From Paludisphaera borealis (lineage in GTDB: Bacteria; Planctomycetota; Planctomycetia; Isosphaerales; Isosphaeraceae), in assembly GCF_001956985.1 (NCBI RefSeq), contig NZ_CP019082.1, positions 496,001 through 560,000 on the forward strand: a stretch of DNA of 64,000 nt. The letters run 5' to 3'. A program made the translations under genes and the position numbers. The stretch's first letter is position 1. The number at the start of each line of letters is the position of its first letter. This document shows positions 1 to 63,276 of this stretch, in pieces. Under the pieces are notes generated by a model. It was not told where the DNA came from, ran no database searches, and saw nothing but the letters and a program-made list of their open reading frames with translations.

Positions 1-3000
1 CGGGTTCGACGACGTGATCGCCCAGGCGACCGGCGATCGCCTTCAAGTCGGTCGGGTGGGGCCTGGCGTCGAGGTTCGAGAACACCGGCCGCCCCGGCGC
101 GGCGATCAGTCGATCGGCGGCGAGCCGGGTCAAGGGCTCGCGGGCGGCGTCCATCCGTTCCGTGTGAAAGGCGCAGGCCACGGGCAGGCGTCGGCCGCGA
201 ACGTTTCGCCCTTGGGCGCGGTCGACGACGGCCTGGACCGACGCCTCCGAGCCGGCGACGACGGTTTGAAGCGGGCCGTTGAAGTTCACGGCCGCGACGT
301 CTTTCAGGTCGCCGATCAAGGAACGGACGGTCTTCGCGTCGGCCGCGAGGGCGGCCATCGCGCCGGGGTTTCGGCCGGCGGCGTCGCGGAGCAATCGCCC
401 TCGCGTCAGCGAAAGCTCGACCAGGCCGCGGACGTCGAGCGCGCCGGCCTCGTGCAGCGCGACGAGTTCGCCGTAGCTGTGACCGGCGACGACGTCGGCG
501 GCGAGTCCCAGGCTTGCCAGCAGCCGCGAGAGCCCGAGGCTCGCCGCGCCGAGGGCCGGCTGAGCGATCTCGGTGGCTCGCAACGCGTCGGTCTGGGCGC
601 GGCGGGCGTCGTCGTTGAAGGCGGGGGGCGGGAAGATCTTCGGGCCGATCGGCTCGCCGCCGAGGTCGCGGACGGCGGCGTCGAACTCGTCGAAGGCGCC
701 GAGCACTTCCTCGAACGCGACCGCCAGGTCGCCGAGCATGCCGACCGCCTGAGAGCCCTGCCCCGGGAACACGAACGCGACATTGCCCCCCGCGTGCCGC
801 GGACGCTCGGCGTAGCGGACGCCGCGCGGGTCGTCGAACGCGGCGTCCCCCTTGCGAATCGCCGACCGGGCGGTTTCCAGCTTTGTGGCCAGATCGTCGA
901 GGCCGGTTGCGACGATCGCCAGCGTGGGGCCGTTGCCGTCGATGGGCTTCCGGCTCGCCAACGTGTGGGCGACGTCGCGGAGCGCGGGCCGCGCGCCGGC
1001 GTTCAGGCGATCGGCGAGTTGATCGAGGTCGCCAAGCAGCGACTCGCGATCGGCGGCCGACCAGACGAGCAACTCGGCGGGCCATTCGCGATCGGCGGCC
1101 CGAGTCGTCGGGATCGGATCTCGCTCATAGGCTTCCATGACGACGTGAAAATTCGTGCCGCCGAATCCGAACGCGCTGACGCCGGCGCGGCGCGGGCGTT
1201 CGAGCGAGGCGTGCAGCCAGGGGCGGGCCTCGGTGTTGAGACGAAGCGGGCCGTCGTGGAGATCGAGCTGGAGGTTCGGGGTCGTCACGCCGATCGTCGG
1301 CGGCAAGACCCGGTTGTGCAGCGCGAGCGTGGCGTGGATCAGTCCGGCCAGTCCCGCGGCGCACTTGGTGTGGCCGATCTGCGACTTGACGGAACCGACG
1401 GTGCACGAGCCTCGCTCGGCGCCCGCCTCGCGCATCAGCCGGCTCAGGGCGGCGATTTCGACGACGTCGCCGACGGCGGTCCCGGTGCCGTGGGCTTCAA
1501 CGTAGCCGACGGTCGCCGGATCGACGGCCGCCTCGGCGTAGGCGCGTTCGAGGGCTCGGGTCTGGCCTTCGATTCCGGGCGCGGTCAGACCCCGGCTGCG
1601 GCCGTCGCTGGAGGAGCCCACGCCCTGGATCACGGCGTAGATGCGGTCGCCGTCGCGCTCGGCGTCGGCCAGCCGCTTGAGAATCACCGCCGTCGCGCCC
1701 TCGCTGATCACGATGCCGTCGGCGGTCGCGTCGAACGGGCGGCAGCGGCCGCGCGGCGAGAACGCTTGCGTCTTGCTGAACGCCAGATACGTGAACGGAT
1801 TTTGAACCGTGTCGACGCCCCCCAGCACGACGACGTCGGCCGCCCTGCTCCGAAGCTCGCGGACCGCCAGGTTGAGCGCGGCGAGCGACGACCCGCAGGC
1901 GGCGTCGACCGTGTAGTTGGCCCCGCCGAGGTTCAGCCGGTTGGCGATCCGGCCGGCGGTGACGTTCAGGAGGAAGCCGGGGAACGAGTCCTCGGTCCAC
2001 TCGGGCAAGAGCCCATCGCAGCTTTCGAGGGCCGCCGCGCCCGAGCCGGGGACGACGCCGTCGAGCATCGGCAGGTACGACTTGAAAGCGTAGCCCATCG
2101 CCACCTGCGCCGCGCCTCCGCCCATCCCGAGCACGACGGCCGTACGCTCGCGGGGGAACGGGCGGTCGGCGTAGCCGGCGTCGGCAAGCGCCGCTCGCGC
2201 TACTTCCAGGGCGAGCAACTGCGCGGGCTCGATGCTCGGCAGGCTGGACGGCGGCATGCCATAGCGGAGCGGATCGAACGGGACGTCGGGAACGAAGCCG
2301 CCCCACTTCGAGTAGATCTTGTCCGGCGCCTTGGGGTCGGCGTCGTAGTAGAGCCGCCAGTCCCAGCGGTCGGGCGGAACCTCGGTGATCGCGTCGCGGC
2401 CGTTCAGCGAGTTCGCCCAGAACGTCGCGAGATCCGGGGCGCCGGGCAGGACGGCCGACATCCCCACGATCGCGACGGCCGCGGGATCGGGCTGGCGTTC
2501 CGTCGCCTCGACGACGCCTGAGGCGAGCCGTTCGATCCAGGCGGTCGCGCCGAGGGCGACGTCTTCGTGCAGCTCGCGCATCGTCACCACGCGATCGCGC
2601 AGCGCGGCGGCCTGGCCGAGCATGTAAAGGCCGTTCGCCGCCTGCACGGATTCGGCGACGGGCGCGAGCGAGGCTTCGGAGCCGTTCTTGCGCTCTACGC
2701 CCTTGGCCGCGATCCGCAGCCGGCCGAGGTTGAGGGTCTCCAGCGACTCGCGGATCTCGTCGTGCGACTTGCGCTGGGCGATCAGCCCCGCGCGCTCGGC
2801 GGAGAAACGATCGACGAACGGCGTCTTGCCGACCCGGACGAGGTGTCCTGGGCCGGTTTCCAGCAGCACGGTCTCCCGGCACTCGGCGGCCTCGTGCTGA
2901 TAGCGCGCGACGATCGCGCCGGTGGAGACGGCCTCGCGGGTGAACAGGTAGGCCGTGCCCATGAGGACGCCGATCCGAACCCCTCGCGCGGCCAAGTCGC

Positions 3001-4543
3001 CGGCCAGGGCCGCGACGGCCGCCGCGGATCGCGCGTCATGGATTCCGCCGGCGAACACGAGGCTGAACGACTCGGCCGCCGCGCCCGCGTCGATCGCTTT
3101 CTCGATGACGCGGCAGCCTTGCTCCCAGAGCACGAAGCTCGATCGCGGGCCGACGTGCCCGCCGCATTCCCGGCCTTCCAGGACGAACCGCCGCGACCCA
3201 GCCCGCAAGAACTGGTCGAGCAGGCCCGGGGACGGGACGTGGAGGTATGTGGCGATCCCTTCCCGCTCCAACTCGGCCGCCTGGTCGGGTCGGCCTCCCG
3301 CGATCAGGGCGAACGGCGGCTTCACCGCGAGCACGACCGCAAGCTGCTCGCGACGCAGTTCGGAAGGGACGAACCCAAGCAGGCCGACTCCCCACGATCG
3401 GCCTTCGAGCCGCCGGGCCGATTCGTTCAAGAGCCGCTCGACTTCCGCCTTTCGCAGGAGAGCCAATGCGACGAAGGGCAAGGCCCCTTCCTCGGCGACG
3501 GCCGCCGCGAACAGCGGCACGTCGCTGACCCTCGTCATCGGTCCCTGAAGGATCGGAAACCGACAACCGTGCGACTTGGCCAGGGCCGCGCTTTCGGCCA
3601 TCGGTCGCGCCTTGAAGGCCCCTTGGAGTCCCGCGTCGATCGCCTTCTCAATCGTCTGGACAACGCCGCCGAGCGTGACATGGGTCGCCGCCAGCTCCGT
3701 CGCGAAGGCGGCGTCCTGGCCGATCGGCCACGCCTGTCCGGCCTTCCAGCCCACGTCGCAAGCGACGGCCCGCGTCCAGACGTCGCCGCCTCGCCGGGCC
3801 GCGTCGCGCAATCTCGAGAGGACGGGGGACGTCGGGGGGGCGTAAACGCGGATCGCGCCGTCAGCGGCCTCGATAAGTTGCGTCTCGCCGCCGTCCCAGT
3901 GCCGCAACACGTCGCGAAACGAGGCCGTCAGAGGAGATTCGCGAACCAGTAGAGCCGCCCCGTCGAGCACCACGCCCGCCGCGCCCGCCGCCACGCAGCC
4001 CGCGGCGACCCTCGGTCCGACACCGCCGCGAACCCATACGGGGAGATCGGTCCGCGCGAGGACGGCCTGAAGCAGGATGAACGCCGAATCCAGGCCGACG
4101 CGTCCGCCCGCCTCGTTGCCGACCACGATCAGACCATCGACCCCGGCCGAAACCGCCGCCTCCGCTTCCGTCGCCGATACGATCTCGCCGACGATCCGAC
4201 GACCCGAGTCGTGAATCCTGGCGCATACCTCGGTCAGCATGTCGCCGTCCCAGGGGCCGGTGCAGACGACCACGGCCAGACCCGGGCCCGCCGCGTCGAC
4301 CCACGGTTCGGCGATCTGATCGGCGCGCAGGCGAACCGCGTACTCGCTGTCGGCGAACCGCGTCAACGAGTCGATCGCCTTCGAGGCGTCGTCGTCGCCC
4401 GTCACGTCGAGGACGCCCAGCGCGCCACCGCGCCCGGCAGCGATCACGAACGATGCGCCGCCAGCGATTCGAGGGGCCAGGGCGAATACACGGCGTTGAT
4501 TCCACAGCATCGCGTTGGCTCTCAATGAATGCGGGTCATCCAT
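1..4543 (-). CDS. PKS-like multidomain enzyme: NMO/PfaD-like domains + ketosynthase + acyltransferase (3' part outside window)
   Basis: The reading frame is open from 4543 to the left edge (about 1514 residues), so the C-terminal part is missing. Residues 1-230 look like a first nitronate-monooxygenase-type barrel (GNEAGGRVG). Residues about 320-560 are a second one (FPILQGPM, then ECGGHVGP), of the 2-nitropropane dioxygenase/PfaD enoyl-reductase type. A ketosynthase begins near 686 (AIVGMSAVLPG), with the active Cys in DAACGSSLAAL near 883, and His in EAHGTGT near 1016 and IGHTKCAAG near 1053. An acyltransferase follows (FPGQGSQAVGM near 1259, GHSYGE near 1355). The combination suggests iterative polyketide or unusual lipid synthesis with built-in enoyl reduction. 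Downstream ACP and reductive domains would lie beyond the edge. The first ATG is at 4543. ATG 4510 has a better GAGAG ribosome site, and a TATAGT box at 4549-4554 lies too close to 4543, so 4510 is a real alternative. Confidence 0.85.
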   Translation of the reverse strand, partial: MDDPHSLRANAMLWNQRRVFALAPRIAGGASFVIAAGRGGALGVLDVTGDDDASKAIDSLTRFADSEYAVRLRADQIAEPWVDAAGPGLAVVVCTGPWDGDMLTEVCARIHDSGRRIVGEIVSATEAEAAVSAGVDGLIVVGNEAGGRVGLDSAFILLQAVLARTDLPVWVRGGVGPRVAAGCVAAGAAGVVLDGAALLVRESPLTASFRDVLRHWDGGETQLIEAADGAIRVYAPPTSPVLSRLRDAARRGGDVWTRAVACDVGWKAGQAWPIGQDAAFATELAATHVTLGGVVQTIEKAIDAGLQGAFKARPMAESAALAKSHGCRFPILQGPMTRVSDVPLFAAAVAEEGALPFVALALLRKAEVERLLNESARRLEGRSWGVGLLGFVPSELRREQLAVVLAVKPPFALIAGGRPDQAAELEREGIATYLHVPSPGLLDQFLRAGSRRFVLEGRECGGHVGPRSSFVLWEQGCRVIEKAIDAGAAAESFSLVFAGGIHDARSAAAVAALAGDLAARGVRIGVLMGTAYLFTREAVSTGAIVARYQHEAAECRETVLLETGPGHLVRVGKTPFVDRFSAERAGLIAQRKSHDEIRESLETLNLGRLRIAAKGVERKNGSEASLAPVAESVQAANGLYMLGQAAALRDRVVTMRELHEDVALGATAWIERLASGVVEATERQPDPAAVAIVGMSAVLPGAPDLATFWANSLNGRDAITEVPPDRWDWRLYYDADPKAPDKIYSKWGGFVPDVPFDPLRYGMPPSSLPSIEPAQLLALEVARAALADAGYADRPFPRERTAVVLGMGGGAAQVAMGYAFKSYLPMLDGVVPGSGAAALESCDGLLPEWTEDSFPGFLLNVTAGRIANRLNLGGANYTVDAACGSSLAALNLAVRELRSRAADVVVLGGVDTVQNPFTYLAFSKTQAFSPRGRCRPFDATADGIVISEGATAVILKRLADAERDGDRIYAVIQGVGSSSDGRSRGLTAPGIEGQTRALERAYAEAAVDPATVGYVEAHGTGTAVGDVVEIAALSRLMREAGAERGSCTVGSVKSQIGHTKCAAGLAGLIHATLALHNRVLPPTIGVTTPNLQLDLHDGPLRLNTEARPWLHASLERPRRAGVSAFGFGGTNFHVVMEAYERDPIPTTRAADREWPAELLVWSAADRESLLGDLDQLADRLNAGARPALRDVAHTLASRKPIDGNGPTLAIVATGLDDLATKLETARSAIRKGDAAFDDPRGVRYAERPRHAGGNVAFVFPGQGSQAVGMLGDLAVAFEEVLGAFDEFDAAVRDLGGEPIGPKIFPPPAFNDDARRAQTDALRATEIAQPALGAASLGLSRLLASLGLAADVVAGHSYGELVALHEAGALDVRGLVELSLTRGRLLRDAAGRNPGAMAALAADAKTVRSLIGDLKDVAAVNFNGPLQTVVAGSEASVQAVVDRAQGRNVRGRRLPVACAFHTERMDAAREPLTRLAADRLIAAPGRPVFSNLDARPHPTDLKAIAGRLGDHVVEP

Positions 4544-4704
4544 AGAGGACTATAACACCCGAAGTGAAGATGGACGTTTTGGGGCGAGTGCGAAATTTGG
4601 GTCAACGATTCATGGTGCACGATCTTTGGATCGATCGTACTGTGCGCGGTGTGGCGCATTTAAGGAATACGTTGGCTGGGATGTCGGGGTTGGGTGGGCG
4701 GGGG

Positions 4705-5610
4705 TCAGGGGGGGCTCGATTTCGGTCGGTTCTTGAGAAGTTCGCGGCGGAGCCGTCGGACCTGGTCCTGGGCGACGGGGGCGAATTTCGATCGCAGGAT
4801 CGGGGCCCCTCGGAACCAGGCTTCGGGCTCGGCGAAGGCCGCGTGCATCTCGACGAAGAGGGCGTCAGCGGCTTCCTTCGACTTCAACCGGCTGACTTTG
4901 ACGTAGCTGACGCCCCCCTGGAACGGGTTCGCGGGACCGTTTTCCGCGAGGTTCTTCCAGTGGTTGGTCGGCTCGCCCGGGGGGTTGAAGGCGGGATCGA
5001 CGCGCGCGGCGATCACCATCGAGTCGTCGGTCCGGGTCGCCATGACTTCGTCGACGGCTTCGAACGCGATCCGATCCAGGAGCCGGCCTTTCAGGTGGAC
5101 GAACCAGTGCGGGGCGTCGCCTTCGAGCTGGGCGACGCGATTCCGGGGCTTCGGGTCGTCGGCGGTGAGCAGGCGCTGCTCAAACCGCATGTTGCCGACC
5201 TCAACGGCCTTCGCGTCGGCTTGCGTGATCAGCTTCACCGGGTCGAGCTGGCTCAGATCGGCCCGGACGACGAACCAGAGGTCGACCGAACGGATGATCG
5301 AGTCGGCCGTCTTGGCGTCGTGGAGCTTGAGGATGTACGGGGCGGTCACCGAATCGCGGAGCAAGTCATTCACCGCTTGCTCGGAGCCGCAAAGGTCGAG
5401 CAAGGCGGCGCGTCGGCCTTTGTCGTCCAATCCGTCGTGGAAGGTCGGCGCGGGAAGGGCGACGGTCGTTCCACCGGCCTTGAGGCCGTCGCGCAACGCC
5501 ACCTCGTAAACCGGGTTGCGCTGGTGGGCGGGCTCCGGGCTCGGGTCGGGCTGCTGGGGAGGTAAGAAAAGGATCGGCGCGAGCACGATCGCTGCGAGAT
5601 GGTTCAGCAT
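4705..5610 (-). CDS. secreted hypothetical protein
   Basis: A 301-residue protein starting at ATG 5610. Residues 1-17 form a short hydrophobic leader (MLNHLAAIVLAPILFLP), followed by a proline-rich stretch, which suggests export. I do not recognise the remainder. It is soluble-looking, mixed alpha/beta, with no cysteine cluster or catalytic motif I can name. The frame stays open far upstream of 5610, but the leader places the start here. It is divergent from the sppA-like gene (5752) and lies 161 bases upstream of the PKS-like gene on the same strand. Co-transcription with the PKS is possible but not shown. Confidence 0.7.
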   Translation of the reverse strand: MLNHLAAIVLAPILFLPPQQPDPSPEPAHQRNPVYEVALRDGLKAGGTTVALPAPTFHDGLDDKGRRAALLDLCGSEQAVNDLLRDSVTAPYILKLHDAKTADSIIRSVDLWFVVRADLSQLDPVKLITQADAKAVEVGNMRFEQRLLTADDPKPRNRVAQLEGDAPHWFVHLKGRLLDRIAFEAVDEVMATRTDDSMVIAARVDPAFNPPGEPTNHWKNLAENGPANPFQGGVSYVKVSRLKSKEAADALFVEMHAAFAEPEAWFRGAPILRSKFAPVAQDQVRRLRRELLKNRPKSSPP

Positions 5611-44051: not shown

Positions 44052-47000
44052 ATGGTTCCCGACTATTACGAGAGACTGGGCGTCGACCCGGCCGCCACGG
44101 CCGCCGAGATCGACGCCGCGCTCCGGAAGAAGCAGCCGGCGTGGTCGATGGGGACGCGAAATCCCAAGACCCGACATGCCAACCAGCTCTTTCTCGACGA
44201 GATCCCCGCGCTCCGCCGCGCCCTCATGGGCAGCGCCGAGACCCGCGCCGCCTACGACGCCGAGCTTGCCGCTGCGCAGATCGCGGACCGCGACGAGAAG
44301 CTCGACGACCTTCAGCGGCTGATCCGCATCCGGGCCGCCAAGGGAGGACTCGGCGCGCCGGACTTCGCCCTGCTCCGCGCCGAGGCGAGCCGGCTGGGCC
44401 TCGAACCGGACGTGCTCGACCGCTTGACCCGGCTCATTCCCAAGCTCACGGATGACGCCGTCCACGACGCCGAGCCGGAGAAAGACGCCGAGCCCCCCGC
44501 CGACGTGCTCGATCCCTCGACTCGTCGGCAGATCCGGTTGGCCCTTGAGCACCTGGGGCGCCGCGACCTCTACGACGCTCTCGGGCTGTTTCGCGACGCG
44601 CCGCTCTCGGTGATCGCCGCCCGCGCCGACGAGGAGCGCCAGCGGTGGATGAAGAAGGCCCAAGTGACCGCCGAGAAGACCGCCTGGCTCGAAGCGATCT
44701 CGCACGCGCAGTCGCATCTCGGCGCGGCCAAGTCGAGGGCGCGCTACGACCGGACGCTGATGCTGGAAGCCGAGGAGCGTTTCGACCAGACTGCCGACTT
44801 CGCGCTCCAGGGGCGCGATCGTCTCGACGCCGGCACGCGGGCGATCCTCATCGACGAGGCCGGCGCATTGGGGATCTTGCCCGACCGCGCGAGTCGGCTG
44901 CTCCAGCGCGCGTGCCGGCGCTGCGGCGCGGCTCTCGACTTGTCGGCCGCCCACGCCGCGACGCCGTCGGTCGCGGGCCAGCCGAAGTCCGCGGCGGCCT
45001 CGGCCGGAAGCAACGGCGCTTACAAGGTCGTCCGCTGCCGCAACTGCGCGGGGGTGAGCGAGGTCAGCCCGGTCGCCCGCCGAGCCGGCCCCGCCCGCTG
45101 CAAGCACTGCGGCGCCTCGCTCAAGTGGGAGTGCCCCGTCTGCCGGCGTTCAAGCTGGGTCGACCAGCCGCGCTGCGCCTGCGGCTTTCGGCTGGTTCTT
45201 CGCGAGGCGCTCGTCCGTCATTTCTCCGCGGCGTTGCATGCGTTTCGGTCGCACGACCTGGAGACCGCCCGCCGCCATCTGGAGAAGGTTCAGTCGTTCG
45301 CGCCGCACCACGTCGGCGCGCGCAACGGAATGGCCAAGATTCAGGAGCGCCGGGTCGAGATCGAGCAAGCCCGGATGGTTTTCGAACTCGCCGAGGCTGG
45401 CGGCCGGATGACGGCGGCCCTCAAGGCCCTCGAAGCGTGGCGGCGGATCGACGATCCCGGCTCGGCCGAGATCCGCAAGGCGCGCGAACTCGTCGCCGAT
45501 CGGGTGCGGCGGGCCGAAGGGCTGGCGGCGAAGGCTCGCAAGCTGGAGCGCGTCGACCCGCCGCAAGCCCGGAGAATCTACCGCATGAGTTTGGAGCTGG
45601 CCGCCGACCTGCCGAACGCCCTCGACGGCCTGAGCCGCTGCCCTCCCGACGCGCCGACGAACCTGGAGGCCCGAGCGCTCGGCGACCGGGTCCAGCTCTC
45701 CTGGACTCCTCCCGAGGCCGACGGCCTGGGCCCACTGACCTTCGCGATCATCCGCAAGCGGGGCGAGCTGCCGAAGCACCCTGGCGACGGCACGCGGATC
45801 GCCGAGGTCTCGACGGCCGAGTTCGACGACCGCCGCGTCGAGCCGGCCGAGACGGTCAGCTACGCCGTGCTCAGCAAGCGGGGGGCCGCCGAGTCGCTGG
45901 CCGCGGTGGCGGCCGGACCGATCCTCTTCCTGCCCGACGTGGAGGACCTCCGGGTCGCGACCCGCGAGGGCGAGGTGTCGCTGTCGTGGGTGGTCCCGCG
46001 AGGCGCCACCGAGGTTCGCGTCGTCCGCAATCAGGAGGCCGCGCCCAAGAACCCGCGCGACGGCGCGCGCGTGCCGGCCGCGCGCGACCAGGCCGTCGAT
46101 CGCGACGTCGCCGACGACAAGGTTTACCACTACGGCGTCTTCGCGATCTATGCGACGCCCGACGGCCGCCGCTTCCCGTCGCCGGGGGTGACGGTCTCGG
46201 CCCGCCCGAGCCCGCCGGTCCCGCCTCCGGGACCTCCCCGGATCATGCTCGCGCCCGGCGGCCAGGTTCGCCTCGATTGGATCGAGCCCGCGCGCGGTTC
46301 GGTGCGGCTGCTGCGCTCTCTCGAACCTGTCCCGCACGCCCCGGGCGCGATTCTCTCCCTCGCCGAGGCCGAATCGCTGGCGGGAGAGTGGGTCGAGCTG
46401 ACCGGCCCGAATCGGGCCGAGGACTTCGATCCGCCGGCCGCCGGCTCGTGCCGGTACACGCTGTTTGCGTCGCTGGGACACAGCCTGGTCGTCGGCCACG
46501 GGGCCAGCCTGAGCCGGGTCGCCGACCCGTCGGGCCTCCGCGCGATCCGGCTCGGCAACGCCCCCGGAGAAGCCGCCGGCGGTCGGGTCCAACTTCGATG
46601 GAACTGGGCCGCCGACACCGTCTCGGCCCGGATCGTCGCGCGCCAGGGGACGTCGCCGATCGGCCCGGACGATCCCGCCGCCCTGGGGGTCGCGGTCTCG
46701 CGCGCCGAGTACGACCGGTTCGGCTCGTGGCTTTTCCACCTGCCGGCCTCGTCGCCGGACGAGCCGAGCGACTTCGAGCTTCATCCGGCCGACGGCGGCG
46801 GCCCCGTCCCGCCTCGCCTGGCCCACTGGCACGTTCGGGTCTACAGCGTCGCCGAGCTCGACGGCGCGACGTGCCTCTCGCCGGGCCTGGAGCCGTCGGC
46901 CGAGACCGTCGTTCCCGGCCCGCACCCCGAAATCACGGTCGCCTACCAGTTGAAGCGTCCCTGGCTCCCCGGCCGTCCCTGGTCGGTCTCGATGCGGACC

Positions 47001-47249
47001 GACCCCCCCGGCGCGAACGTGCCGCCGATGGTCGTCGTCGCCAACGCCCGCGCCGTGCCGCTCTCGGCCGAGGACGGCGACGTCGTCGCCCGCCTCCCCG
47101 CCGGCCGCGACGGCGCCAGCCACCCGATCCCCGCCGACCCCCGCCTGGCGTTCCTCGGCCTCCGCGCCTTCGTCGACCCCGGCTACGATCCCGACGCGCT
47201 TTTCCCCATCCGTCTTCGCCACCCCGAGGCCGGCGCGACCCGCGTTTGA
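44052..47249 (+). CDS. large protein with two degenerate J-like domains, zinc ribbons and FN3-like repeats
   Basis: A 1065-residue protein with no membrane segment that I can see. Residues 4-75 look like a J domain (DYYERLGVDPAATAAEIDAA ... AETRAAYDAEL) but lack the HPD tripeptide. Residues about 172-245 are a second J-like copy (DLYDALGLFRDAPLSVIAAR ... KSRARYDRTLM). Residues about 288-380 carry zinc-ribbon Cys pairs (CRRCG, CRNC, CKHCG, CPVC, CACG). A helical TPR-like part follows (FSAALHAFRSHDLETARRHL). Residues about 530-1000 are several FN3-like beta-sandwiches (RVQLSWTPPEADGLGPLTF and others). ATG 44052 fits; the frame extends to 43989. The build suggests a scaffold, possibly for an Hsp70 system, but the missing HPD argues against normal J activity. 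Confidence 0.75.
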   Translation: MVPDYYERLGVDPAATAAEIDAALRKKQPAWSMGTRNPKTRHANQLFLDEIPALRRALMGSAETRAAYDAELAAAQIADRDEKLDDLQRLIRIRAAKGGLGAPDFALLRAEASRLGLEPDVLDRLTRLIPKLTDDAVHDAEPEKDAEPPADVLDPSTRRQIRLALEHLGRRDLYDALGLFRDAPLSVIAARADEERQRWMKKAQVTAEKTAWLEAISHAQSHLGAAKSRARYDRTLMLEAEERFDQTADFALQGRDRLDAGTRAILIDEAGALGILPDRASRLLQRACRRCGAALDLSAAHAATPSVAGQPKSAAASAGSNGAYKVVRCRNCAGVSEVSPVARRAGPARCKHCGASLKWECPVCRRSSWVDQPRCACGFRLVLREALVRHFSAALHAFRSHDLETARRHLEKVQSFAPHHVGARNGMAKIQERRVEIEQARMVFELAEAGGRMTAALKALEAWRRIDDPGSAEIRKARELVADRVRRAEGLAAKARKLERVDPPQARRIYRMSLELAADLPNALDGLSRCPPDAPTNLEARALGDRVQLSWTPPEADGLGPLTFAIIRKRGELPKHPGDGTRIAEVSTAEFDDRRVEPAETVSYAVLSKRGAAESLAAVAAGPILFLPDVEDLRVATREGEVSLSWVVPRGATEVRVVRNQEAAPKNPRDGARVPAARDQAVDRDVADDKVYHYGVFAIYATPDGRRFPSPGVTVSARPSPPVPPPGPPRIMLAPGGQVRLDWIEPARGSVRLLRSLEPVPHAPGAILSLAEAESLAGEWVELTGPNRAEDFDPPAAGSCRYTLFASLGHSLVVGHGASLSRVADPSGLRAIRLGNAPGEAAGGRVQLRWNWAADTVSARIVARQGTSPIGPDDPAALGVAVSRAEYDRFGSWLFHLPASSPDEPSDFELHPADGGGPVPPRLAHWHVRVYSVAELDGATCLSPGLEPSAETVVPGPHPEITVAYQLKRPWLPGRPWSVSMRTDPPGANVPPMVVVANARAVPLSAEDGDVVARLPAGRDGASHPIPADPRLAFLGLRAFVDPGYDPDALFPIRLRHPEAGATRV

Positions 47250-57717: not shown

Positions 57718-58818
57718 TTAGGCCTGGGCGGGTCGCCGCCTCAGCAACGAGGGCAAGAACATCAGGAGGCCGAGGCAGGCGGTCAGCGCCAGGAAGAGGG
57801 GAGACCAGCCCGAGGCCGGCACGACCATGCCGGGGATGAACACGGCGGTTTCGCCCGCCTTCCGGCTGCTCTGGTGGAAGACCTGAACCGGCCGGAGCGT
57901 ACCGTCGGGAAGCCGGCGGTCGCTCTGGTAGACGAGCGAATAGCTGGCGCCGAGCCGTTCGGCGATCGTCGTGTAGACGGCTTTCAACTCCTCGGCTCGC
58001 TGGGCGGGATAGTATTGACCCCGGGTCGACTCGGCCAGCGCCTTGAGGGCGTCGCCGGCGATCGCCTCTTCGGTTCCCAGGCCGAGCGTGTAGACCGGCA
58101 GGCCGAGGCGCCGGGCCGCGGCGATGTCGGCCGGCAGGTTGGCCTCCTGACTGGACGTGTCGTGGCCGTCGGTCAGGGCGAGCACGGCGCGTCGGCCGTG
58201 CTCGTGGTCGAGCATCGCGAGCGCCTCGGCCACCGCGTCGTAGAACCGGGTGGCGCCGCCGGGGTGAAGCCGATCGACGGCGGCGCGAACGCGGTCGCGG
58301 TCGGTCGTGAACGGGCAGATCAGATCCACCTCCGAGCCGAACGCGACCACCGCCACCCGCGAGCCCTCGGGCGTCTTCTCCAGGAACGTCGCGACCGCCT
58401 CCTTGAGCGATCCCATCCGATCCTCTTCCTGCATGCTCAGGCTGCGATCGACGACCAGCACGATCGTCGTGGCGACCGACTCGGTCGTCAACGGGGCCTG
58501 GAATTCGAGGATCGGCAGCTCCTTGCCGTCCTCGGCGACCCGGAACTCGTCCTTCCTGGCGTCGCGGAGGAACGTGCCGTCGGGCCGTCGCAGCTCGAAC
58601 TGCACGGCGATCCGGGGGAACTCCTGCTGACTGGCTCCGGTGACGACGACCGTGTTCCCGGCCTCGGGCGGGGGAGGCGCCTCCTCGGCCTCCAGCGTAC
58701 TCGACAGCGCGAGGAACAACAGCAATGCCGATGCAGACAGGCCGGGTTGCAACACCCTTCTCCCGCAAGGGGAGAAGGCAGGATCGCGACGGCCCGTGTT
58801 GCAGACGATGCGGCTCAT
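57718..58818 (-). CDS. membrane-anchored vWA-domain protein of the Hsp70-FHA cluster
   Basis: A 366-residue protein. ATG 58818 overlaps the FHA gene's stop (ATGA). A hydrophobic leader (LSASALLLFLALSSTLEAEE) lies at about 25-45. A beta-rich lead follows, then the vWA domain at about 120-310 with MIDAS residues DRSLS (DxSxS), the Thr in GGATRFYDAVA and the Asp in LALTDGHDTS. A C-terminal helix (GWSPLFLALTACLGLLMFLP) gives a second anchor, so the vWA domain probably faces outward. The N-terminal 20 residues are encoded by a dispersed palindrome (58756-58778). A GTG just after it is an alternative start, with the palindrome's GGAGAAGG as its ribosome site. It is the last gene of the cluster. Confidence 0.85.
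   Translation of the reverse strand: MSRIVCNTGRRDPAFSPCGRRVLQPGLSASALLLFLALSSTLEAEEAPPPPEAGNTVVVTGASQQEFPRIAVQFELRRPDGTFLRDARKDEFRVAEDGKELPILEFQAPLTTESVATTIVLVVDRSLSMQEEDRMGSLKEAVATFLEKTPEGSRVAVVAFGSEVDLICPFTTDRDRVRAAVDRLHPGGATRFYDAVAEALAMLDHEHGRRAVLALTDGHDTSSQEANLPADIAAARRLGLPVYTLGLGTEEAIAGDALKALAESTRGQYYPAQRAEELKAVYTTIAERLGASYSLVYQSDRRLPDGTLRPVQVFHQSSRKAGETAVFIPGMVVPASGWSPLFLALTACLGLLMFLPSLLRRRPAQA
58756..58778. repeat. palindromic repeat, copy 2, inside the vWA gene
   Basis: CCTTCTCCC (58756-58764) and GGGAGAAGG (58770-58778) form a nine-pair stem around GCAAG. It shares the core of the intergenic palindrome at 32955-32982. Here it lies in the N-terminal coding part of the vWA protein, ahead of its hydrophobic leader. 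Confidence 0.6.
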
Positions 58819-60260
58819 GACCCGTCCCCCTTGCGAACGACGTTCCGGCGCGGGAACGCGACCCACGACGCCGCCGCGAGCGCCGCGCCGAGCAGCCCCC
58901 AGACGATCAGCAGCATCGGTGCGGACAATGGGGAACCGACGACCCCCTCAACGCTCCGAATCGCCGCGAAACCCAGGGCCGAGGCCAGCAACCCGACGGC
59001 CGCGCCGGCGAATCCGGAAGCCGCGACGTCGAGCCGATCGCCTCCCCGGCTCCCCAGCACCGCGCCGATCAGAAAGCCCAGCGCGCTCATCACGACCGCC
59101 GTGGCCGGCAGGCCGGGCTCTCCCGTCCCGCTCGGCGGCAGACCCAGGGGAAGCCGATCCGCGAACCCGACGAGCAGGCGAAAGCTGATCAGGACGCTTG
59201 GAAACAGCCAGAACCTTCGCTCCAGCGGCAGCGAGGCCAGCCGGGAGCCGAACGAAACGCCCGCGATGTTTGCGTCGACCGGCTCGTCGGGGAATGCGAC
59301 CGCCATCGGGCGTTCGACGCGGACCTCGATTCGCTTCGTGCCGCCGTTGCTGGCGACCACGATCGTCCCCAGTTTCGTCGAGGTCGCGGCTTCGGGAACC
59401 TCGATCTCCACCCCGATATCGCTCTGGTCGATCGTCAGCAGCGGCTTTCCGTTCAGGTCGGGGGACAGCCGCAGACCGCCGGGGGTCGACGATTCGATCT
59501 GGATGGTCGAGCGCAGCAAACGGTAGCCGACGTTGGTGATCCGCAGCGATTGGCGAATGACTCCACCCGTCGCGCCGGTGCGGACGACGAGCGTCTCGGG
59601 GTGGACGTCCAGCTCCGGGGCACTCGACCGGGTCGAGGGAAGTCGGCCCAGCCAGGCGTCGAGAGCCTCGTCGGGCGTCTGCCCGGGCTCGTGGCGAGGG
59701 ATAAGATCGGTTCGCTGAATCCGCCGCAGGTGTTCGGTCAGCCGACCCGACGCCAGCTCGTCGCGAACCAGCGGCCAGCGCTGGGCGGCCAGGGTCAGAA
59801 AATCGTCCCAGGTCCGACAAACCGCGCCGCCGGGGAACGTGTAGGTGGCGTTCGGTGGCGTCGTCGACGGGGGCTTCGGTCTGACGGGCTCGGCGACGAC
59901 AGCTTCGCCCCCTTCCGGCTCGCGCTGGACCAGGAGCTGGACGCCGCCGACCTGTATCACGTCGCCCGGCTGGAGCTTCCGCTCCTGGCCGCTCAGCAGG
60001 CGCTGCCGATTCACGAAGGTGCCGCCGGGGCTTTCAAGGTCGCGGACGGCGAGGCTTTCAGCGGTCGCGACGAGGCAGGCTTGCCGGCCGGACATCCGCC
60101 GCGGCGACGCTCCTTCCTGGTCGCCGAGATCGACGTGGGCGGTCGTCGCCTGCTCGTTGCCGATGGTCGTCTCGCCCGCGCCGAGGGCGTAGCGACGCCC
60201 GACGTCGCGCCCGCGAACGACTTCCAACGCCCATCGTTTCCGCGTCGTGGTGGTCGCCAT
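58815..60260 (-). CDS. FHA-domain membrane protein of the Hsp70-vWA cluster
   Basis: A 481-residue protein. The FHA domain spans about 12-112: RYALGAGETTIGNEQ, the MSGRQACLV segment, and LESPGGTFVNRQRLLSGQER, then LQPGDVIQVGGVQLLVQRE. A helical segment follows (TWDDFLTLAAQRWPLVRDEL, about 155-200). A beta-sandwich of about 100 residues comes next (TLVVRTGATGGVIRQSLRIT). The last 130 residues hold four hydrophobic helices (for example VVMSALGFLIGAVLGSRGG). The FHA domain is therefore on the cytoplasmic side and should bind phosphothreonine. It starts five bases after the preceding FHA gene, and its stop overlaps the vWA start. Confidence 0.88.
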   Translation of the reverse strand: MATTTTRKRWALEVVRGRDVGRRYALGAGETTIGNEQATTAHVDLGDQEGASPRRMSGRQACLVATAESLAVRDLESPGGTFVNRQRLLSGQERKLQPGDVIQVGGVQLLVQREPEGGEAVVAEPVRPKPPSTTPPNATYTFPGGAVCRTWDDFLTLAAQRWPLVRDELASGRLTEHLRRIQRTDLIPRHEPGQTPDEALDAWLGRLPSTRSSAPELDVHPETLVVRTGATGGVIRQSLRITNVGYRLLRSTIQIESSTPGGLRLSPDLNGKPLLTIDQSDIGVEIEVPEAATSTKLGTIVVASNGGTKRIEVRVERPMAVAFPDEPVDANIAGVSFGSRLASLPLERRFWLFPSVLISFRLLVGFADRLPLGLPPSGTGEPGLPATAVVMSALGFLIGAVLGSRGGDRLDVAASGFAGAAVGLLASALGFAAIRSVEGVVGSPLSAPMLLIVWGLLGAALAAASWVAFPRRNVVRKGDGS

Positions 60261-60265
60261 GATCC

Positions 60266-61186
60266 CTATCGTCGTCGGAAGACCAAGGAAGTTCGTCCCA
60301 GCTCGATTCGATCACCGTCGTTGAGAACCCGCGCCGAGGAACAGACGACGCCGTTGACCTTGGTGGCGCCCGACTTGGCCAGGTTCCGCAGCATGTAGCC
60401 TTGCGATGTCCGTTCGATCTCGGCGTGCTCGCGCTCGACGGCGGCGTCGCCGAAGACGCCTACCTCGGCGCGCTCGTCGAGTCCCAACCGGCATCGCGGG
60501 CGAGCCAGCAGGTAGATCCGGCCCTCTTGCCGACCGCTGGCGATCTGCACCCAGGCCTGCCGCAGCGCCTGCTCCACCAGGGCCAGGAAGAGGCCGAGCC
60601 CGCCCCCCAGGATCACGATCCCGAGCGCCTGGCTGAGGTCGTAGCGGTTGCCGAGCGCGACCCGCAGGGCTTCGAAGCAAAGGCCGCCGACGAACCCTCC
60701 CAGACCGCCGCCGATCAAGCCGAAGGTGAGCCGCTGCCACGAGCGGTCGGCGAGCCCCTGCCCCAGCCCGATCCCCAGGCCGAGCACGGCCCACGACGCC
60801 GCCCGTCCGAGCAGCCCGCCCTGGAACACGCCGATCACCACCTCGCCGAGCACCAGGCCGAGCGCCCCGCCCAACGCCGCGGCGGGCGTTCCCCAGGCGA
60901 CGGCCCGTGCCAGCTTCCGCCAGGCGCCGTCGCGCCACGGCCCCCAGGCGTTCAGGAAGAACCCGATCGAGCCGCCGAGGATCGCGCCGGCCAGCGCGTC
61001 GCGGACGTACACCGAATCGGTCCGCACCAGCTCGACGTAGAGATACAGGCCGAAGAGCCCGCCCAGGGCGCCGGCCAGAGCCAGGTCGTACGCCTGCCGC
61101 AGGCTCGCCCAGCTTCGCCGGGGTCGCGGCGACGCGGAGGGGGGCTCGATCGTCGATTGGATCGAAGTGGTGGTCGTGATGGTCAT
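60266..61186 (-). CDS. glycine-rich polytopic membrane protein with C-terminal FHA domain
   Basis: A 306-residue protein. The start ATG 61186 lies inside the Hsp70-vWA stop (ATGA). Residues about 28-205 form a series of Gly-rich hydrophobic helices (LALAGALGGLFGLYLYVEL, DALAGAILGGSIGFFLNAWG, LTFGLIGGGLGGFVGGLCFE, LGIVILGGGLGLFLALVEQA), a glycine-zipper-like build. Residues about 215-305 are an FHA domain (RCRLGLDERAEVGVFGDAAV, EREHAEIERTSQGYMLRNLA, KSGATKVNGVVCSS, LNDGDRIELGRTSLVFRRR). The two tandem FHA genes have opposite domain order, FHA-then-membrane against membrane-then-FHA. Confidence 0.87.
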   Translation of the reverse strand: MTITTTTSIQSTIEPPSASPRPRRSWASLRQAYDLALAGALGGLFGLYLYVELVRTDSVYVRDALAGAILGGSIGFFLNAWGPWRDGAWRKLARAVAWGTPAAALGGALGLVLGEVVIGVFQGGLLGRAASWAVLGLGIGLGQGLADRSWQRLTFGLIGGGLGGFVGGLCFEALRVALGNRYDLSQALGIVILGGGLGLFLALVEQALRQAWVQIASGRQEGRIYLLARPRCRLGLDERAEVGVFGDAAVEREHAEIERTSQGYMLRNLAKSGATKVNGVVCSSARVLNDGDRIELGRTSLVFRRR

Positions 61187-63276
61187 ACTTTGTTCATCAC
61201 CCGCAGCGAGCGGCCTCCCTCGGCGATGACGCGGGCGATATGGCCGAAGGTCTGGACCAGCTCGCCCCCCTTGACGAAGATCGACGCCGCCTCGCTGCTG
61301 GCCAGCCGGCTCAGGTACTCGCGGTCGGCGGCGCCCGTGCCGATCGCGACGACGTCGATCCCCTGCCCTCGCGCCCCTTGCGCCTGTTCGACCGCGCTCT
61401 CGGGGGCGTCCGGGAAGCCGTCGGTCAGGATCACGACGTATCGCTTCCAGTCGTCGGCGACGAGCTGGCCGCGGGCCATCTCCAGGGCGTCGGTCAGGTT
61501 GGTGCTCCCCTCGGCTTCCAGGCGGTGGATCGCGGCGTGCAGCCGGCGGACGTTGCTGGTGGGGGGCGACTGCAAGTTCACGACGCTGGAGAACGAGATC
61601 AAGCCGACCTCGGTCGTCGTGAAGTCGCAACGGTCGAGGAACTCGCGCGCGGCGGTCTGGGCTTCGATGAGCGGCGCGCCCATAATGCTCGACGAGACGT
61701 CCATCAAGAGCATCACCCGAATCCGCTCGGGACCGCCGACGGCCACCATCTCGGGGGGCTCGCCCATCCACGAGAGATCGTCGGGGACGGCCTCGACCGT
61801 CATGGCCAGCCGATGTCCGCTGTCGCGCTGGGTCGCCCGCACCTGAACCACGCCGTTGGCGTCGTACGACAGGCCGACGTCGATTTTCACCTCCGCGTCG
61901 CTCGGGTGGATACCCGTGAAGACGTACTTGCCCAGGACCGTGCAGTCGAGCGGCGAGGGGCTCTCCCCCTGGGTCAGATAGACTTCGAGCCTTGTATTCG
62001 CCCCGCCGTGGGTGGCGTGGATGTAAGACCGGACGTTCTCGGCCGGGATCGCCACGTTGCGGCGGATCACGACGTCGTTGACGTAGGCCGTCCCCTCGGG
62101 GTTGACCGCGACCACCCCCAGGCTGTGCGACATCACGTCGGTCACCCGTCGCGCCGTCGTCGCCGTGCCGGTCCCGCCTCCTCCGAGCGTGAATTTGGGC
62201 GTGGCGTCGCCGATCGACTGGCCGGCTTCCATCGCGGCCTGGACCGCCGCGCCGAGCGCCACGACCTCGTCGACGTTGACCCCGGTGCGTGGGGCCTTGC
62301 CGGCCGTCCTGGTCACGTACGACCGGACCATCGGCATCCGGGTCGAGCCGCCGACGAGCAAGACGCCGTCGAGCCTGTGCCACGAGAGACCGGCCTCGTC
62401 GAGCGCCTCCTCGGTCAGCCTTCGGGTCCGATCCATCAGCGGGGAGGTCATGGCCTCGAACTCTTCGCGCGAGATCTCATAGGTCTTGCGCTGGGCGCCG
62501 AGTTGAAGGGTGACGCGGGTCGAGGATCGTTCCGAGAGCGCCCACTTGGCCTGTTCGCTGCGGACGAGGACTTCGTTCAAGGCGACGGGGTCGTCGAGCG
62601 GGTCGAAGCCGGTCTCGGCCGCGAACTGCTCGGCCAGGAAGGTGGCGATGCGGTCGTCCCAGTTCTTGCCTCCCAGGTCGTGGTCGCCGGCCGTGGCCAG
62701 CACGGCGATGTCGTCGGCCGTGATCCGGGCGACGGTGACGTCGAACGTGCCGCCGCCGAGGTCGTAGATCAGGACCGTCTCGTCCTCGGCGCCAGGCTTG
62801 TTCAGACCGTAGGCGAGGGTCGCCGCGGTGGGCTCGTTGATGATCCGCAGCACTTCGAGCCCGGCGGCGTTCCCGGCGGCGATGGTCGCCTTCCGCTGGG
62901 CGTCGCCGAAGTACGCCGGCACGGTGATCACGGCCCGGTCGATCTCGTCGCCGATCGCCGCTTCCGCGTCGTCCTTGAGCTTCTTGAGCACGATCGCCGC
63001 GAGGTCGGCCGCCGAGTAAGTCTTGCCGTGGAACTCAAGCTGGTAGAGCGGGCTCCCCATGTGCGGCTTGAAGAAGCTGGCGATCTCGGCGTCCCCCAGC
63101 CGCGCCCATTCCTTGGCCTCCTGCCCGACCACCGGCGGATCGACGCCGAAGTAGATCACCGACGGCGTGATGTTCGCCCCCTCGCGATTGGCGATCACCT
63201 CCGGCCTGCCATACGCATTCCGACGCGCCACCACCGAGTTGGTCGTCCCCAGGTCGATCCCGACGAAGCTCGCCAT
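61183..63276 (-). CDS. Hsp70 (DnaK-like) - von Willebrand factor A chimera
   Basis: A 697-residue soluble protein. Residues 1-375 are an Hsp70 ATPase domain: [14 protein letters not shown], the [17 protein letters not shown] block, [27 protein letters not shown] and [13 protein letters not shown]. Residues about 385-510 are a beta-type substrate-binding domain ([40 protein letters not shown]). The helical lid and C-terminal tail of DnaK are absent. In their place residues about 518-697 form a vWA domain with full MIDAS: DVSSS near 525, the Thr in [11 protein letters not shown] and the Asp in [12 protein letters not shown] 63276 lies nine bases after the Uma2 gene; the stop overlaps the next gene. 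It is first of the four-gene cluster and not a replacement for housekeeping DnaK. Confidence 0.92.

Follow-up and report, generated by a model that had tools for sequence, protein, structure and literature searches.

The 64,000-nt stretch of Paludisphaera borealis DNA analysed here (the window; positions 496001-560000 of contig C1, in a genome of 7,651,896 bases on three contigs) encodes a 1065-amino-acid protein, here called P0001, in which two segments resembling J-domains (J1 and J2) are followed by zinc ribbons, a TPR-like helical block, FN3-like domains, and a C-terminal beta-rich domain (Table 1). A model's reading of the letters and open reading frames (ORFs) alone, referred to below as the original prediction, had proposed that P0001 could be a docking scaffold for a non-standard Hsp70, Hsp70-vWA, encoded about 14 kb away; the gene for a second Hsp70, Hsp70A, lies just beyond the window. 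Both J segments lack the His-Pro-Asp (HPD) tripeptide, and Hsp70A lacks two of the residues that HPD contacts in Escherichia coli DnaK. The wider interest lies in this matched loss, on both sides of the J/Hsp70 contact.

Table 1. P0001, its parts, and associated genes. Coordinates are window positions unless a contig is named.
Feature	Coordinates	Strand	Residues	Basis and remarks
P0001 coding sequence (HPD-less tandem-J / zinc-ribbon / TPR-like / FN3)	44052..47249	+	1065 amino acids	ORF and full-length homologs
J1	44061..44276	+	4-75	Profiles and model; helices 5-9, 17-34, 41-59, then a helix reaching 95
J1 loop in place of HPD	44142..44168	+	31-39	Alignments; W-[SA]-x-G-[TA]-R-N-P-K
Helical module 3' of J1	44340..44429	+	97-126	Alignment and model
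J2	44565..44771	+	172-240 (to 252 in full-length model)	Model, VIA-align, weak profile match (2yua, E 0.29)
J2 loop in place of HPD	44646..44690	+	199-213	Alignments; W..K.QVTAEKTAWL in window copy
Second helical module	44823..44924	+	258-291	Alignment and model
Two zinc ribbons	45036..45188	+	329-379	Invariant Cys pairs, weak DZR match
TPR-like helical block	45192..45641	+	381-530	Sub-threshold TPR_19; helices in full-length model
FN3-like domains, about four	45642..46922	+	531-957	Profiles, full-length model, fold matches
C-terminal beta-rich domain	46929..47231	+	960-1060	Secondary structure of model only
Hsp70-vWA	61183..63276	-		Co-inherited gene
Hsp70A	C1:560652-562439			Just beyond window end; inherited with Hsp70-vWA
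FHA protein of Hsp70 cluster	58815..60260	-		Pfam; matched in 7/9 compared Hsp70-vWA loci
vWA protein of Hsp70 cluster	57718..58866	-		Matched in 7/9 Hsp70-vWA loci; an eighth match is Hsp70-vWA itself
Small conserved ORF of Hsp70 cluster	60312..60938	-		No Pfam match; positional counterpart in G037 (L083:12228-13133) has FHA/Yop-YscD

On the window copy itself, the Pfam J-domain profile PF00226 scores 18.1 bits over residues 4-28, below the DnaJ cut-off of 27.8; at E<=0.1 it matches 24 of 25 aligned family members, the window copy included, with a best value of 2.5e-9. A profile built from the 25 members finds the J-domain structures of DnaJ over residues 3-71 (best rows, E 2e-4 to 9e-4). This family profile is needed: phmmer against the PDB with the single P0001 sequence returned only titin and unrelated matches. 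In an AlphaFold2 model of residues 1-301 (predicted local distance difference test score, pLDDT, 89.5), both segments are predicted to form the helix II/III hairpin and four-helix fold of a J-domain. VIA-align of this model listed 50 entries, of which 39 are J-domains or DnaJ/Hsp40-type proteins, judged by title; the best were 6rzy for the J1 region (Z 9.3, residues 1-76) and 3ucs for the J2 region (Z 8.7, residues 155-240). Foldseek gave no match with E<0.001 (best 0.19, probability 1.00), and because these values are weak the fold claims rest on the VIA-align Z list and the profiles. The J-likeness of the two segments exceeds chance; profile and structure checks had been set beforehand for the two J-like segments of the original prediction, and with a J-fold predicted for both, that claim was not refuted.

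Its statement that neither segment has HPD is borne out as well. A scan of the whole window protein found no HPD anywhere, and at the loop position it occurs in none of the rows of two 25-row alignments, so that P0001 is not an Hsp40 in the strict sense of the tripeptide; in the G027 homolog a single HPD occurs by chance past helix III and before helix IV (residue 225), which is outside the HPD loop. In its place stand replacement loops present in all rows: W-[SA]-x-G-[TA]-R-N-P-K in J1 and a core of AE[KM]T.WL in J2, each in 25/25 rows of both alignments. Ranked by mean column identity, the J1 loop is 6th of 1056 nine-column windows and the J2 loop 1st of 1050 fifteen-column windows. The J segments are therefore not decayed, their replacement loops being among the most conserved stretches of the protein. 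The same genome has nine other PF00226 matches (eight above the cut-off), all with HPD.

The remainder of P0001 largely follows the original prediction. FN3-like domains are supported by profile matches to titin and fibronectin, by Pfam fn3 in 10/25 family members, and by fold matches over residues 530-724 and beyond. With a highest 19-residue hydropathy mean of 1.39, the protein has no stretch hydrophobic enough for a membrane helix, as the prediction had noted, and is probably soluble. Zinc ribbons are present, but of the "several" described only two are conserved in the 25-row alignment (C329/C332 with C350/C353, and C361/C364 with C375/C377); the C288/C291 pair is not. The TPR-like block did not figure in that description. 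The full-length model has a pLDDT of 83.3 and a predicted template modelling score (pTM) of 0.47, and an NCBIfam scan gave nothing specific for P0001. The high-GC strand also carries very long antisense ORFs over real genes, for example at 45150-47222 (-); a similar one is seen at rpoB loci.

P0001 was found only in Isosphaeraceae, the family group of the window's genome, where it has matches in 37/45 genomes. When 84,980 species genomes were scanned by pattern, the 24 loci recovered were all in planctomycetes; outside the family, 293 further genomes of the phylum yielded no full-length match (best 2 candidates per genome scored), and four plasmid matches (E 1 to 10) were uninformative. Within the family, Hsp70-vWA has orthologs in 35/45 genomes (64-100% identity, some in pieces) and Hsp70A in 36/45 (72-100%); the 36th is G013, where a contig edge falls inside Hsp70A and the presence of Hsp70-vWA cannot be judged. 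Among matches listed outside the family (best 3 candidates per genome) none was a full-length Hsp70-vWA, the best reaching 41% over the Hsp70 part.

The co-occurrence with Hsp70-vWA that the original prediction set as its own check is close. Every genome with Hsp70-vWA (35/35) also has P0001; the J region is readable in 34 of these, all with both loops, and G019 has only C-terminal pieces. Of the ten without it, eight lack P0001 (G003, G013, G015, G022, and G033-G036; one of the eight is fragmentary), and two, G004 and G005, have a copy with a damaged J part. Fisher values here are 3e-10 and 1e-8, phylogeny ignored. The proximity on which the prediction had leaned means little, however: on shared contigs of other genomes (G011, G039, G040, G012, G037, G031, and G001) the distance from P0001 to Hsp70-vWA is 0.15 to 4.5 Mb, and the 14-kb closeness is particular to the window's genome and incidental. 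The link to an Hsp70 is thus supported by co-occurrence, with Hsp70A, as argued below, the better partner candidate.

Damage in these two copies is uneven. J1 is deleted entirely in G005, and the loop residues are gone in G004; of the columns otherwise invariant, G004 and G005 respectively keep 13/18 and 2/18 in J1 and 13/22 and 12/22 in J2, against 17/17 and 15/17 in the ribbons and 13/13 and 13/13 in the TPR-like block (30/30 and 28/30 for the last two together). The G004 gene (L076, 5010-8121) is broken into two overlapping open frames, one with the J part and the other with the ribbon-FN3 part; its genome lacks the Hsp70 pair. G012, which has both Hsp70s, has the converse pattern: 18/18 J1 and 20/22 J2 columns are kept, and 2/17 in the ribbons. 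Both J loops of this ortholog (L077, 5405-8452) are intact, both ribbons are lost, and Hsp70A and Hsp70-vWA are unlinked in that genome.

Complete loss can be followed through the gene directly downstream of P0001 (47390-48214), which encodes a conserved 274-amino-acid protein without Pfam or NCBIfam match and is found in 44/45 family genomes. G003 and G022 retain this gene along with two other neighbours, and their contigs run on for 8.0 and 4.6 kb, respectively, upstream of it, yet neither has a P0001 match; in same-genus relatives of both, P0001 lies directly upstream of the gene. In G015, G033, and G034 the downstream gene and an aminotransferase gene are present, again without P0001. Mapped on an rpoB tree (42 genomes), the Hsp70 pair undergoes five changes and P0001 with intact J segments six, the extra one being in G013. 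Loss of P0001 is real, yet the events are few.

The salt bridge between D35 of HPD and R167 of Hsp70 is central to current models of J-domain action. Contacts reported for E. coli DnaK (PMC8215388) are H33 with L391 of the linker, P34 with P419, and D35 with R167 and Q378. Hsp70 sites were numbered by alignment to this protein. At position 167, Hsp70A has A in 32 and S in 2 of 34 readable orthologs, and never R; at position 378 it has Y in 22 and F in 14 of 36, and never Q. Hsp70-vWA keeps R167 in 31/35 and Q378 in 32/34 orthologs; those of G039, G040, G041, and G042, all of one genus, have G in place of R167, and two of them also R in place of Q378. Both residues are kept in E. coli DnaK, HscA, and HscC and in the DnaK of the window's own genome. 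The E. coli J partners have HPD (DnaJ and HscB) or HPE (DjlC). DnaJ D35N suppresses DnaK R167A (PMC13012618) and R167H rescues D35N (PMC5519331); a joint change on the two sides therefore has experimental precedent and can be functional.

Other members of the phylum have the same combination in neighbouring genes. The survey used the first 80 listed Hsp70 rows that start at residue <=5 and reach >=478, with G000 and partial rows excluded, a choice that favours rows near the query; up to 4 kb was taken on each side, and 15/80 stretches are cut by contig ends. The phylum-wide Hsp70 search scored the best 3 candidates per genome. Sixty-two of the 80 planctomycete Hsp70s lack both R167 and Q378, 17 have both, and one has K167/Q378. 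Half of the 62 (31, from 30 genomes in eight family groups) adjoin a same-strand HPD-less J gene, with gaps of 0-1131 bases; the widest is in L237, which also has a 100-amino-acid ORF. No J gene was in range of any of the 17 Hsp70s with R167/Q378, nor of the K167/Q378 one (Fisher p 4e-5 for J presence, 32/62 vs 0/17, phylogeny ignored). The J profile was trained on segments from four loci, L163-L166, which recur in the survey as L217, L225, L228, and L191 (4/31); the other 27 are outside the training set. GrpE, sought with a profile seeded from the same four loci, is found in 12/31 of the R167-less loci with HPD-less J and 1/17 R167 loci.

In L163-L165 the gene order is a GrpE-like gene, Hsp70, and a tandem HPD-less J protein (with an extra ORF between the first two in L165), and in L166 GrpE, Hsp70, and a single HPD-less J protein; Pfam GrpE values are 4.6e-15 in L163 and 1.7e-15 in L166, and all four Hsp70s lack R167 and Q378. 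The W-x5-NPK spacing of the P0001 J1 loop is also found in the second J segment of 4/5 tandem proteins, with HPK in the fifth. By BLASTP, P0001 residues 1-301 score 33.5 and 33.1 bits with two of the operonic J proteins, vs 25.0 with E. coli DnaJ. A plasmid search with an operonic Hsp70 gave, among the matches listed, none above 40% identity and many annotated as DnaK. Two other survey loci have an HPD-less J segment fused to MshEN (L202:5657-6718 and L233:5536-6555; Pfam E 4.8e-17 and 8.2e-19), beside an Hsp70 with D167/H378. MshEN binds cyclic diguanylate (c-di-GMP), and the fusion suggests that Hsp70 recruitment might be under nucleotide control. The one exception among the 32 J-bearing loci is L218 (G179, 1-5043), where an Hsp70, again D167/H378, lies between two J-like proteins that both have HPD in the loop region, one of them fused to an FGE-sulfatase domain.

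In a FastTree phylogeny of 98 Hsp70s, 70 R167-less rows, including Hsp70A, form one clade (support 98), within which Hsp70A groups with those Hsp70s whose neighbour is a tandem HPD-less J gene (support 92, subject to a long-branch warning). Hsp70-vWA branches on the R167 side, and that of G040 is the sole R167-less row outside the R167-less clade. The pattern suggests a matched, HPD-independent J/Hsp70 pairing, derived largely from one Hsp70 clade. P0001 shares with these pairs a co-inherited Hsp70 lacking R167/Q378, but not the adjacency of the J and Hsp70 genes.

Because R167 and Q378 are lost in every readable ortholog, and because its nearest relatives adjoin HPD-less tandem-J genes, we infer that Hsp70A is a better candidate J partner than Hsp70-vWA. 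The original prediction named Hsp70-vWA, and to this version we give a minor share of the probability. Its strengths are the 35/35 co-occurrence of Hsp70-vWA with P0001 and the replacement of the DnaK LLL linker in Hsp70-vWA, a linker that H33 of HPD touches in DnaK (PMC8215388 and PMC13012618); it fits poorly with the retention of R167 and Q378 in most orthologs and with the place of Hsp70-vWA among the R167 Hsp70s.

The partner might also be no Hsp70 at all. Synteny of Hsp70-vWA with FHA and vWA genes is seen in 7/9 compared loci, and the J-like segments, having no HPD, could be plain protein-protein modules for one of these co-inherited proteins. We consider this improbable, as HPD-less J genes adjoin R167/Q378-less Hsp70s in eight family groups, with GrpE in 12/31 of these loci, a pattern pointing to the Hsp70 itself.

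On balance we lean, by a modest degree, toward P0001 being a soluble J co-chaperone or scaffold that serves two dedicated Hsp70s, Hsp70A and Hsp70-vWA, and docks via rewired J loops. The pairing is supported by the predicted J-folds, the conservation of the loops, the shared presence and absence, the loss of R167/Q378, and the combination of adjacent genes elsewhere in the phylum. J1, J2, or both would hold Hsp70A, and perhaps Hsp70-vWA, with W-x5-NPK in J1 and W..K.QVTAEKTAWL in J2 standing in for HPD. Direct binding of this kind would allow docking or ATPase control without the D35-R167 contact, and the zinc ribbons, TPR-like helices, and FN3 domains could recruit a client or partner, giving P0001 its putative role as a docking scaffold. 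More speculatively, the synteny of Hsp70-vWA with FHA and vWA genes hints that the assembly may be phospho-dependent.

Several observations weigh against this interpretation. In the eroded copies the FN3 region and C-terminal domain have suffered too (24/34 and 9/15 invariant columns kept in G004, 29/34 and 11/15 in G005), and erosion is therefore heavier in the J part and at the far end than in the middle. G004 and G005 are apparently sisters (support 88), and the J erosion may be a single event. G015, G033, and G034 are weaker as loss cases, since in their ancestors the downstream gene may not have been linked to P0001. The rpoB tree has only three independent pairs whose branches are well supported, and for that reason the sign test (p 0.25) could not reach significance. 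All genomes without the genes are 6.9 Mb or smaller. Hsp70A is 17 kb from P0001 in the window's genome, and elsewhere on a different contig or more than 0.15 Mb away; and since the two Hsp70s co-occur, presence and absence cannot tell them apart. In the survey, 30/62 of the R167/Q378-less Hsp70s had no detected J neighbour, the two J-like neighbours in L218 (1/62) have HPD, and GrpE is also found in 8/31 of the R167-less loci without J. As the R167-less Hsp70s form one clade save one, the 31 J/Hsp70 pairs are not 31 independent losses.

A broader scheme can be drawn tentatively, and we think it rather less probable than the role proposed for P0001 itself: an old Planctomycetota Hsp70 subfamily without the HPD-Asp/R167-Gln378 trigger would, together with HPD-less J proteins, form an orthogonal interface with motifs of its own, P0001 being the multidomain-scaffold member in Isosphaeraceae, with its J loops erased where the Hsp70 pair is missing. 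If so, the R167/D35 suppressor pairs made in the laboratory would have natural equivalents. With both sides missing, these natural pairs would reveal which part of the J/Hsp70 mechanism can be dispensed with, and would serve mechanistic work as an orthogonal pair; many "degenerate" J-like proteins of Planctomycetota would become candidate working co-chaperones. A limited check of the literature available without subscription found no description of paired natural loss of HPD and its Hsp70 contacts; PMC13012618 describes HPD as critical to the action of J-domains and conserved universally.

Compared with canonical J proteins (DnaJ, CbpA, HscB; PF00226), P0001 has the predicted J-fold, the signatures at its start and end, and weak sequence homology; it differs in having no loop HPD, strictly conserved replacement loops, a tandem arrangement of J segment plus helical module, and the FN3 tail.

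J-like proteins without HPD are also known from mitochondria: those of the Tim16/Pam16 type have a J-fold without HPD, as P0001 is predicted to, and are paired with an HPD-bearing J protein. We know of no matching Hsp70 change for them. By analogy P0001 might be a decoy or inhibitor, occupying canonical DnaK without stimulating it, and these regulators are its precedent; it seems a very slight chance, however, as every one of the 45 family genomes has Hsp70 matches, yet those without the divergent Hsp70 pair have lost P0001 or have an eroded copy.

An architectural parallel is in the GAP1-N2/DO-GTPase conflict systems, whose neighbourhoods, in section 29 of Kaur et al. (2020; PMC7159879), contain, besides GrpE and two HSP70s, an FNIII protein typically carrying a fused DnaJ domain or TPR repeats; that section does not mention HPD loss. 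P0001 likewise combines FN3 repeats with J segments and a TPR-like block (TPR at sub-threshold level only) and has an Hsp70 and a second Hsp70, and could be the FNIII component of such a system with an Hsp70 theme. GAP1-N2 is the commoner in genomes with P0001 (26/35 vs 3/10; Fisher p 0.021, phylogeny ignored), and three genomes have DO-GTPase2-like genes at distances of 3.3 to 8.3 kb, upstream of the Hsp70 pair (G041:C19:112772, G037:C1:2249753, and G010:C317:10329); a further one, below the cut-off, is about 1.5 kb from the Hsp70-vWA fragment of G016 (C1174:1948). In G037 a GAP1-N2 gene is about 24 kb from Hsp70A. Unlike in the described systems, the genes are scattered and no GAP1 or GTPase is linked to P0001: there is no GAP1-N2 within 200 kb of P0001 on a shared contig (most draft-genome copies being on different contigs, with distance undefined), and no DO-GTPase2 near its gene in the family tables. 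Nine of the 35 genomes with P0001, four of them same-genus relatives, have no GAP1-N2 match, and DO-GTPase2 is in all 45 family genomes and so does not track P0001. Membership in such a system, once considered as the principal explanation, was demoted by this patchy co-occurrence and by the ubiquity of DO-GTPase2, and we now regard it as unlikely; the P0001/Hsp70 set may have a partial link to the GAP1-N2/DO-GTPase theme.

The J proteins of L163-L166 in other planctomycetes differ from P0001 in gene adjacency, as noted, and in their C-terminal parts: in place of the ribbons and FN3 domains, that of L164 ends in a PDZ domain (Pfam; L163 and L165 are similar by eye) and that of L166 in a coiled coil and hydrophobic end. 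Like P0001, they have HPD-less J segments (in tandem in L163-L165) and an Hsp70 without R167/Q378, and they are closest to it in sequence.

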